Program-made: the position numbers and the translations under genes
The notes under the pieces: generated by a model
Database searches by the model: none
What the model was told of the DNA's origin: nothing
Seen by the model: the letters and a program-made list of their open reading frames with translations, nothing else
Shown here: positions 27,981 to 30,892 of the stretch, one piece after another
Layout: each line of letters opens with the position of its first letter
Position numbering within the stretch: the stretch's first letter is position 1
From: a virus
Length of the DNA stretch: 32,407 nucleotides
Strand: one strand, 5' to 3'
Virus record (IMG/VR): IMGVR_UViG_3300010885_029377
Span: 1 to 32,407 of that record

Positions 27981-28024
27981 AAAATATTTTAAGTGTAAAT
28001 ATTTAATTTATAAAGTTTTAAATG

Positions 28025-28052
28025 AAAGCACTGTAAAAAAGTGCTTTTTTTT
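28025..28052 (+). terminator. Intrinsic terminator after the endolysin
   Basis: AAAGCACT (28025-28032) pairs with AGTGCTTT (28040-28047) around a seven-base loop, followed by Ts through 28052. It ends the late transcript before the early promoter at 28099. Confidence 0.9.
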
Positions 28053-29375: not shown

Positions 29376-29801
29376 ATGAAAAAAGTAAAAAAGAAAGTAA
29401 AAAAAGTAAAAGTTACATACAGCAGTAAAATAATGGATTTAATTTTATATGCTGAAAAACTTGAATCAGTACAATATTTGTACGATTATTTTATACACTT
29501 AAAAAACAATAGAAATTGTTTTGTAGTGGAAATGCGAAGACTGGTTTCAAACGATTTACAAAGCAAAGGATTTACGATTGCAGATATTGCTTTGATATTA
29601 TCAAAAACGCACGCAACGTTAAGTTATCTGAATGACATACGACCTAGCGATTTTGTAGCTGCCGAAGTTTTGGTAAATTATCAAAGTTGGATTGAAGACG
29701 AAGTTTATCCAAAGTCCGTACGAAAGAGAGAAATTTCACATTTGCATAAAAACGGAACAAAAACAGTTGTAATTTACGAATTAAATAGACTGAATGAATA
29801 G
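29376..29801 (+). CDS. DnaA domain IV-like DNA-binding protein
   Basis: The 141-aa product has a very basic N terminus (MKKVKKKVKKVKVTY) and a helix-turn-helix at about residues 50-86, VVEMRRLVSNDLQSKGFTIA followed by DIALILSKTHATLSYL, that follows the pattern of DnaA domain IV (an R-rich helix, then a variant of the DHTTV signature). It lacks the AAA+ ATPase domain. Such small proteins are frequent near replication genes in Bacteroidota phages. It could recognise origin repeats, such as the array at 30415-30469, or host DnaA boxes. The target is inference. Confidence 0.7.
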   Translation: MKKVKKKVKKVKVTYSSKIMDLILYAEKLESVQYLYDYFIHLKNNRNCFVVEMRRLVSNDLQSKGFTIADIALILSKTHATLSYLNDIRPSDFVAAEVLVNYQSWIEDEVYPKSVRKREISHLHKNGTKTVVIYELNRLNE

Positions 29802-29831
29802 TTTGTGAATTAAAAATAATTTGTATATTTG
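29802..29831 (+). promoter_or_regulatory. Strong Bacteroidota-type promoter for a structured RNA
   Basis: TTTG at 29802-29805 and TATATTTG at 29824-29831 are separated by 18 bp, the best match to the -33/-7 consensus in the window. The site overlaps the end of the DnaA-like gene's stop region and drives the structured RNA beginning near 29836. Confidence 0.75.
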
Positions 29832-29835
29832 TACA

Positions 29836-29930
29836 ACGGTTCGGCTTCACACCATAGAACTAAAAAATGTTATTGCCCTTGTAATGAAATTGGACGTGAA
29901 GCCCCAACGGATTTATAAGGGCTTTTTTTG
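29836..29930 (+). ncRNA. Structured RNA: pseudoknot or attenuator
   Basis: The region between the promoter and a T run can form three main stems. Stem A: GGCTTCAC (29843-29850) with GTGAAGCC (29896-29903), 8 bp. Stem B: GCCCTTGTAA (29875-29884) with TTATAAGGGC (29913-29922), 10 bp with one G-T. Stem T: AAGCCC (29899-29904) with GGGCTT (29919-29924), followed by seven Ts. A and B interleave (A-B-A'-B'), a pseudoknot topology; T competes with both. A small stem, GTTC/GAAC (29839-29842/29857-29860), encloses the first half of A. CAACGG is repeated at 29834 and 29905. This may be a leader controlling 29973 onward or a free RNA. Confidence 0.65.
29899..29930 (+). terminator. Terminator stem of the structured RNA
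   Basis: AAGCCC (29899-29904) and GGGCTT (29919-29924) form a 6-bp stem around a 14-base loop, ending in seven Ts (29923-29929). The upstream half is also needed by stem A, so formation of A would prevent this terminator stem, while stem B could serve as an alternative terminator hairpin. Confidence 0.7.
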
Positions 29931-29972
29931 TTAACTAAAGGTTACTCGTTATCCAAAAAACGTTTAGAAATT

Positions 29973-30185
29973 ATGGCAAATGTCAAATTAATATTCTGCG
30001 GAGATCCTGAAGCAGAATGCTGCGAAACAGCAGTTCAAGTTTACGTAAATGATTCTGGAAAATTGTATTTGGAAATAAGAGATTATTTAAGTGATTTTGA
30101 GCAAAGTGAATATACAGTACTGGATAAGGAAACAGCAATAAAATTTTCAAAGGAATTGCGTAAGCAAATCGCATTAATGTATTAG
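29973..30185 (+). CDS. Small hypothetical protein, 70 aa
   Basis: The ATG at 29973 is chosen over a TTG at 29928 that lies in the terminator T run. The 70-aa product is alpha-beta (MANVKLIFCGDPEAECCETA, then YLEIRDYLSDFEQSEY), with Cys9 and a CC pair near residues 16-17. It is the first gene behind the structured RNA, so its expression probably depends on read-through of that element. The replication gene follows by two bases. No family recognised. Confidence 0.7.
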   Translation: MANVKLIFCGDPEAECCETAVQVYVNDSGKLYLEIRDYLSDFEQSEYTVLDKETAIKFSKELRKQIALMY

Positions 30186-30187
30186 TC

Positions 30188-30892
30188 ATGGCGGAAAAAA
30201 GAGATTCAATGATTTTTTATCGTAGTTTTTATGAAGCAATTAGAGAACTATCAAAAGAGCAACAAGGAGAAATTTACAACGCTATTTTTAGCTATGGATT
30301 AGATTTTTTAGAACCTGAATTAAAAGGAATTTCTAAGACTATTTGGACGTTGATAAAACCGCAAATTGACGCAAATATAAAACGTTACAATAACGGTAAA
30401 GTTGAAAAAACAAAGCAAACTAAAAGCAAAACAGAAGCAAAACAGAAGCAAGAAATAAGCAAAACAGAAGCTAATGTAAATGTAAATGTAAATGTAAATG
30501 AAAATAATAATTCTAATCTTAATGTTAAATCAATTAATATTATAGAAGATCGCAAATTAAAATTTGATGAATCATTAAAAATTTATTTGGATGAATACGG
30601 CAGGGAAATGACTAATCAATTTTTTAAATATTGGACAGAGCCGAATAAAACCAATACAAAACTTAAATTTGAACTAGAAAAAACGTGGAGTGTAAAATTA
30701 CGATTGGAGCGTTGGGCGAAAAATAATAAAAACTTTAAAAACGGAAACAATGGAAACAAACAAGAAACAGCAGATGAACGTCTACAGGCAGCCAAATCCA
30801 GAATATTGGGCGAAGATCCTGAATTTAGCAAATCAGAATCAAATAACGAAGATATCGAGTTCACAGGCTACGAGAATGTTAGTAGTTTCTGA
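30188..30892 (+). CDS. Replication protein candidate (DUF6291 N-terminal domain)
   Basis: The 234-aa product begins with a DUF6291-like domain: MIFYRSFYEAIRELSKEQQG (about residues 8-27), then IYNAIFSYGLDF and WTLIKPQIDANIKRYNNG at 53-70. A lysine-rich linker with K-T-E-A-K and NVNVNVNEN repeats (about 71-112) leads to a helical C-terminal domain (from about 125). The layout resembles phage replisome organisers, in which the origin lies inside the gene. The linker DNA carries an 11-bp repeat array (30415-30469) and a 6-bp repeat with AT-rich DNA. It overlaps the next gene by 17 nt. Confidence 0.75.
   Translation: MAEKRDSMIFYRSFYEAIRELSKEQQGEIYNAIFSYGLDFLEPELKGISKTIWTLIKPQIDANIKRYNNGKVEKTKQTKSKTEAKQKQEISKTEANVNVNVNVNENNNSNLNVKSINIIEDRKLKFDESLKIYLDEYGREMTNQFFKYWTEPNKTNTKLKFELEKTWSVKLRLERWAKNNKNFKNGNNGNKQETADERLQAAKSRILGEDPEFSKSESNNEDIEFTGYENVSSF
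30415..30469 (+). repeat. 11-bp iteron-like array, five units
   Basis: Units start at 30415, 30426, 30437, 30448 and 30459. The second, third and fifth are identical (GCAAAACAGAA); the first and fourth match it at 8 of 11 bases. All share GCAA-x3-A-x-AA. Eleven base pairs is about one helical turn and is not a multiple of three, so the repeat drifts through the reading frame and cannot be explained by protein repetition alone. Confidence 0.8.
30473..30496 (+). repeat. 6-bp tandem repeat AATGTA x4
   Basis: Four perfect AATGTA units are followed by AATGAA and then about 60 bases of nearly pure A/T. In the frame of the replication gene it encodes alternating N and V. It may be slippage-prone low-complexity coding DNA or the unwinding region next to the 11-bp array. 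Confidence 0.8.

Follow-up and report, generated by a model that had tools for sequence, protein, structure and literature searches.

A predicted kissing-loop RNA with its own terminator lies upstream of DNA-replication genes in many viruses of flavobacteria

We analyzed a 32,407-base stretch of viral DNA, the IMG/VR virus record IMGVR_UViG_3300010885_029377, which we call the window. About 170 bases without a conserved gene lie between a 141-amino-acid gene (29376-29801) and a 70-amino-acid open reading frame (29973-30185). A sequence-only reading had proposed that this gap encodes a structured RNA. We find that the structured non-coding RNA is real and lies almost where that reading placed it, with a different anatomy: two hairpins of the same molecule kiss through their loops, and hairpin II is the terminator. 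The features are:

29376-29801, + strand: 141-amino-acid upstream gene; a DnaA-domain-IV-like gene is at the equivalent place in many relatives
29824-29831, + strand: -7 promoter element TATATTTG (Bacteroidota TAnnTTTG), from the sequence and its conservation in homologues
29836-29929, + strand: predicted transcript, from the start site (29836/29837) to the end of the T-run; covariance-model match and homologues
29838-29842, + strand: P1 5' strand GGTTC of hairpin I (minimum-energy fold; covariation)
29843-29850, + strand: A5' kissing strand GGCTTCAC in the loop of hairpin I (98.0% paired, double changes at 6 of 8 pairs)
29851-29856, + strand: rest of loop I, ACCATA (family consensus A-N-TATA from the alignment, mostly fixed by the search pattern)
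29857-29861, + strand: P1 3' strand GAACT (minimum-energy fold; covariation)
29862-29874, + strand: unpaired linker AAAAAATGTTATT, conserved in sequence (consensus AAAGNNGTTATT)
29875-29884, + strand: B 5' strand GCCCTTGTAA, outer stem of terminator hairpin II (covariation)
29885-29889, + strand: internal loop, 5' side, TGAAA (module classes in 62 homologues)
29890-29893, + strand: C 5' strand TTGG, inner stem of hairpin II (inner-pair conservation)
29896-29903, + strand: A3' kissing strand GTGAAGCC in the loop of hairpin II (covariation with A5')
29904-29907, + strand: C 3' strand CCAA, directly next to A3' (inner-pair conservation)
29908-29912, + strand: internal loop, 3' side, CGGAT (module classes in 62 homologues)
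29913-29922, + strand: B 3' strand TTATAAGGGC, which closes the terminator hairpin (covariation)
29923-29929, + strand: seven-T run of the intrinsic terminator (sequence; alignment columns 112-116 are 95-100% T)
29973-30185, + strand: 70-amino-acid small open reading frame of unknown family, the first gene 3' of the RNA
30188-30892, + strand: DUF6291 protein (PF19808, E = 4.2e-22), probably of replication-initiator type

The 70-amino-acid reading frame has no Pfam match; in about half of the relatives, a small reading frame (~50-80 amino acids) separates the RNA from the initiator gene. We found nothing on DUF6291 in the open-access literature. The DUF6291 gene contains tandem repeats at 30473-30505 (AATGTA, 5.5 copies) and 30407-30471 (an A-rich 33-base repeat), which encode asparagine-rich low complexity and are present in relatives too; these are possibly origin iterons, or only a protein linker. 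The window's 141-amino-acid protein has no significant Pfam match. In relatives, the upstream gene matches Bac_DnaA_C (E = 1e-7 in locus L006, 2.7e-11 in Danklef_1, and 1.2e-13 in phi18:3), and a similar gene is found just upstream of the RNA in 23/58 cases.

When the RNA was compared with phages by blastn, all of the matches listed were short or attributable to chance, so we found relatives through their neighbors, patterns, and structure. The first four (L003-L006) were identified via neighboring proteins. A profile search with DUF6291 gave 80 viral loci, and a free-position DNA pattern matched 115 stretches, of which 80 were retrieved. Almost every retrieved match to the pattern was the RNA; L126, L132, and L142 (and L153) contain the pattern without the structure and look like coincidences in coding sequence. 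Relatives are present in more than 100 IMG/VR stretches, and the same layout is found in the named phages Flavobacterium 11b, Cellulophaga phi13:2, phi18:3, and phi19:3, and Polaribacter Danklef_1. There is no such RNA near the matched gene in Riemerella phages GRNRAP2, CRP19, and CRP5 or in Bacteroides phage BS-TP3. One scan of cellular genome contigs gave two Clostridia loci only, and blastn identified no plasmid-borne copies. A heavily conserved fold precedes DNA-replication genes in many viruses of flavobacteria.

The sequence-only reading did not recognize a named RNA family, and Rfam agrees. None of the Rfam 15 covariance models matched the window at the gathering threshold, and no family came near threshold even at E ≤ 10. 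Among the loci of 20 relatives, the only Rfam match was an unrelated tRNA in L115 (at 1359-1428, on a contig that also carries the RNA). In the open-access literature, candidate tables of gut phage RNA surveys aside, we found no description of it. We consider this to be a new RNA family, with a type of control that is already known.

The DNA pattern fixes GTTCG, CACA, and TATAGAAC and leaves four bases of A5' and the entire 3' half free, so whether A, B, and C pair tests the structure independently of the search. Across 65 distinct homologues and 25 pairs, 98.3% of pair cells are paired, versus 76.5% after shuffling. There are double-sided changes in 23 of the 25 pairs (333 cells, versus 86 shuffled), and controls with slid partners pair at most 51%. 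Because the model contains an effective number of only 3.9 sequences, these cells cannot be treated as independent, which is why the diverged named phages matter.

Compensatory changes in the two interleaved stems, which the sequence-only reading had offered as its own test, are extensive. Both stems lie exactly where they were drawn: A as 8 base pairs (29843-29850/29896-29903; 98.0% paired in the 65 homologues) and B as 10 base pairs interleaved with it (29875-29884/29913-29922; 99.1% paired, with double changes at 10/10 pairs). Stem A alone is 97.8% paired versus 79.8% for shuffled sequences, and its 12 sequence types are fully paired in 62/62 homologues. Stem B is complete in 59/63, versus a swap null of 5.7. 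The interleaved anatomy was incomplete as first described: A and B are real, and P1 and C, which both fold and covary, had been missed. P1 is 96.9% paired, with changes on both sides at 5/5 pairs in the 65 homologues, but the search pattern fixes most of it, and the only loci that contribute P1 variation are those identified in other ways. In stem C, the three inner pairs form in 62/62 homologues, versus a swap null of 27% (maximum 44%).

A third stem (29899-29904/29919-29924) had been proposed as a competing, mutually exclusive terminator. It is paired in 79.6% of cases across the homologues, versus a partner-swap null of 80.9%, so we reject it as a match in the window's sequence only. Stem B is itself the terminator that is conserved, and it can form together with the A pairing. 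In short, the RNA has two separate hairpins with complementary loops, and there is compensatory change both in the hairpins and in the loop pairing.

The unpaired linker is conserved although the search pattern does not fix it: alignment columns 37, 43, and 44 are invariant, and columns 45 and 47 are at 0.89. Among 62 homologues, the internal loop of hairpin II is UGA/GGA in 35, AGUA/GAA in 14, a flipped GAA/AGUA in 6, and another type in 7. The loop-E (sarcin-ricin) module has AGUA/GAA as its consensus, while UGA/GGA is compatible with tandem purine pairs. Conserved, junction-like unpaired nucleotides and known three-dimensional modules might be expected of a ligand-binding riboswitch. However, the internal loop swaps modules, so no single binding pocket is kept; we found no expression platform with alternative pairing; and the downstream genes do not share a metabolite pathway. 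We consider a riboswitch to be extremely improbable.

The minimum-energy fold of the window's RNA gives hairpin I (P1) and hairpin II (B together with the inner stem C) and leaves both loops open. Folding L103, Flavobacterium phage 11b, and Cellulophaga phi18:3 gives the same nested structure; in 11b, the predicted inner stem extends into the A3' strand. As a free duplex, A5'/A3' has an energy of about -12 kcal/mol. Without the kissing stem, the folding energy is unremarkable (z of -0.5 to -1.0), while hairpin II alone has z = -3.1. The covariance model matches the window at 87.4 bits (E = 1.4e-16), with the window being a member of the training set. We also searched for the combination of promoter, P1, A, B, and T-run. 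In the window, this search scored 61.0 at the RNA, with the next-best match at 44.0 and reversed decoys at 44.0 or below. When it was run on the window, 11b, Danklef_1, and the first 50 kb of phi18:3, the RNA ranked first in each (60-62.5), with other matches at 52.5 or below and reversed decoys at 48.5 or below. Interleaved-stem scores of at least 45 are common 5' of the downstream gene in relatives, and control coding stretches reach 38.5 at most, which puts the interleaved stems beyond chance.

A promoter-like sequence, TTTG-N18-TATATTTG, occupies 29802-29831: a -33-like TTTG at 29802-29805 is followed by an 18-nucleotide spacer and the -7 element. In Flavobacterium johnsoniae, transcription starts 4 or 5 nucleotides after the -7 element TAnnTTTG, and the -33 element is weak (PMC6847099). 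Applying this rule to the -7 element predicts a start at 29836/29837. An exact TAnnTTTG lies 2-4 nucleotides 5' of the aligned RNA start in 52/65 homologues, while the -33 box shows no conservation across the 65. This had been called the best promoter in the genome. By count, it does not stand out (4 matches, versus 5 in the reversed control), so it is the conservation of the -7 box, and not the count or the -33 box, that supports it. A second promoter-like sequence, at 448-473 of the window (88% over 25 bases), lies just 5' of the gene at 488 and has no RNA.

The seven Ts are indeed present at 29923-29929, and they directly follow a stem (B) with a G+C-rich base, as in an intrinsic terminator. 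A simple scan for terminators had missed hairpin II because it allowed only loops of 3-8. Elsewhere in the window, a simple terminator-like hairpin with a T-run lies at 28024-28048, shortly 3' of the CHAP endolysin gene. Could hairpin II be an ordinary terminator or insulator between operons, with an incidental kissing stem? Essentially all copies have the hairpin and T-run, and the upstream genes run in the same direction as the RNA and usually end close to it. But such a terminator does not need an 8-base-pair kissing pair, and A is kept in 62/62 homologues with 12 sequence types, as well as in the named phages with other sequences. Also, the promoter is 5' of the terminator, not 3'. This explanation seems very improbable.

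The RNA had been proposed to sit, like an attenuator, upstream of a replication-initiator gene, and this placement is supported, with the gene being of replication-initiator type. The median distance from stem B to the first ATG is 24 nucleotides (50 in the window, to the small reading frame), and TAnnTTTG occurs between them in 0/60 cases. The terminator thus lies between the promoter and the first start codon with no other such promoter in between, and downstream transcripts must cross it.

The genes that follow are not homologous to each other: they are replication genes, DNA methyltransferases, or HNH endonucleases. DUF6291 is the commonest (24/78 are matched by the N-terminus of the window's protein), and elsewhere its place is occupied by DnaD-like loaders and O-like initiators. 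Others are HTH_36, an MT-A70 methyltransferase with a ParB-like part, DNA helicase, Prim-Pol/DUF3987, a primosomal-type protein, and HNH endonuclease. Because the same RNA precedes unrelated genes, the trigger is probably not the downstream gene's own product, and self-regulation by DUF6291 in particular is unlikely.

Five contigs contain two copies, each with its own promoter, RNA, and gene, and with different kissing sequences. In L172 and L140, one copy precedes a ParB-methyltransferase gene; the other precedes an O-like initiator in L172 and, in L140, a 497-amino-acid protein similar to an L107 protein that matches phrog_28855. Several second copies are 13 nucleotides 5' of HNH endonuclease genes. 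Second copies before methyltransferase and HNH genes weaken the idea that the element is an origin of replication. In L110, L160, and L168, the RNA 13 nucleotides before HNH homing-endonuclease genes is of a second type, with a P1 of GTAG/CTAC or similar and an A of GTTACGG/CCGTAAC or ATTGCGG/CCGCAAT; among viral contigs, only four match the pattern for this type.

The leader had been described as encoding no protein, and we found no conserved protein there. In the main group, reading frames are short and inconsistent, so we rejected a peptide-coding leader. In three diverged groups (L067-L069/L081; phi13:2/phi19:3; and L024/L027; the loci with this feature include L014 and L015), a reading frame of 31-41 amino acids (MKNI.../MKIF...) begins within the RNA, and its end overlaps the beginning of the gene that follows. 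These reading frames suggest that ribosomes could open the terminator in those three groups.

The main rival to cis attenuation is that the main product is the terminated RNA, a stable small RNA of ~94 nucleotides whose targets in trans would be RNA or protein of the host or the phage; the downstream genes would be expressed by leaky read-through or from upstream transcription. The whole fold is conserved up to and including the terminator, which is also expected if the terminated RNA is the product, and so counts against an attenuator. Unpaired linker and loop positions are conserved as well, and the structured internal-loop modules would suit a folded product or a protein-binding RNA. There is also a prophage precedent, IsrK of Gifsy-1, which is reported as a terminated small RNA together with a read-through mRNA (PMC4825925). 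On the other hand, the loop strands vary freely with compensation, so there is no conserved target-pairing sequence, and the RNA sits right before a gene almost everywhere it occurs, also where a second copy precedes an unrelated gene. This constant placement before unrelated genes, with each copy having its own promoter, favors action in cis, and we think that a trans-acting RNA is rather unlikely.

Another cis-acting possibility is processive antitermination, in which the nascent RNA would bind and modify the polymerase, as the put RNAs of phage HK022 do, so that its own terminator and later ones are ignored. The RNA is compact, with its kissing fold, it lies at the very start of an early-type operon transcript, and the same element is 5' of many operons. 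However, the RNA has an intrinsic terminator of its own at its 3' end, and a put-like element would have no need of one. We judge this to be improbable.

We favor the view that the RNA is a cis-acting attenuator leader of the replication operon, and we consider this reasonably likely: it is probably a gate that decides whether the replication genes are made. Host RNA polymerase would start at 29836/29837, from a housekeeping-type promoter. Hairpin I would fold first and present A5' in its loop, and as hairpin II emerges, the A3' loop would kiss A5'. A5' adjoins P1 and C3' adjoins A3' with no unpaired base at either junction, so P1, A, and C could stack as one rod. Stem B would then close beside the T-run, and most transcripts would end at about 29930, giving an RNA of ~94 nucleotides. 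The downstream genes would be expressed only when polymerase passes the terminator. Read-through would then be the controlled step, and the kissing pair would set the efficiency of termination in vivo. It counts against this proposal that we found no conserved antiterminator that would exclude the terminator: the proposed third stem fails, and there was no other conserved alternative. We also rejected the idea that the A strands hide the downstream start, as their complementarity to the start region equals the swapped null.

If kissing tunes termination, then this would be a simple intramolecular attenuator whose pairing codes are freely exchangeable. More tentatively, a terminator hairpin that is switched by a kissing 5' hairpin of the same transcript might represent a new class of regulatory RNA: a portable module of flavobacterial phages that gates genes for replication, methylation, and homing endonucleases, with copy-specific kissing sequences that prevent cross-pairing among several copies in one genome. 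The element is widespread and clearly conserved in structure, it has no Rfam entry, and replication genes must be transcribed through it; little has been described of how Bacteroidota phages control their replication. Its presence in cultured phages (11b, phi13:2, phi18:3, phi19:3, and Danklef_1) makes the model directly testable, and the covariance model could be used to annotate replication modules in metagenomic phages.

Several known RNAs resemble parts of this one. In phage P4, the processed CI RNA pairs in trans with sites in the leader, which controls premature termination in the leader of the replication operon. The flavobacterial phages would likewise combine leader termination of a replication operon with RNA-RNA pairing, but the pairing that we examined in them is intramolecular and includes the terminator hairpin. 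The put RNAs of phage HK022 are structured, lie at the start of early transcripts, and act in cis to prevent termination; they lack a terminator of their own, unlike the flavobacterial phage RNA (a comparison by description). The leader of T4 gene 32 contains a pseudoknot that is bound by the gene's own product. It is likewise a pseudoknotted leader of a phage replication gene, but the flavobacterial RNA is followed by genes that have no relationship to one another, which speaks against self-regulation. In the pistol ribozyme, a hairpin loop pairs with a downstream strand inside a second stem, and there is an A-rich linker. Loop pairing with a strand held in a second stem and an A-rich joining linker are shared features, but the second stem of the flavobacterial RNA is a terminator, and Rfam gave no match near threshold at E ≤ 10.

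Phages have other conserved structured RNAs, such as the c4 antisense RNA (RF01695) and others described by Weinberg et al. 2010 (PMC2864571), but no Rfam family matches the flavobacterial RNA at the gathering score. In Salmonella prophage Gifsy-1, the short form of IsrK is reported to act in trans on its own read-through mRNA (PMC4825925). Like IsrK, which yields a terminated short form and a read-through mRNA from one start, the flavobacterial RNA is phage-borne and has its own promoter. It differs in that it precedes replication genes, in a different host phylum, and in its kissing-hairpin fold, which the abstract of that study does not mention for IsrK (PMC4825925).
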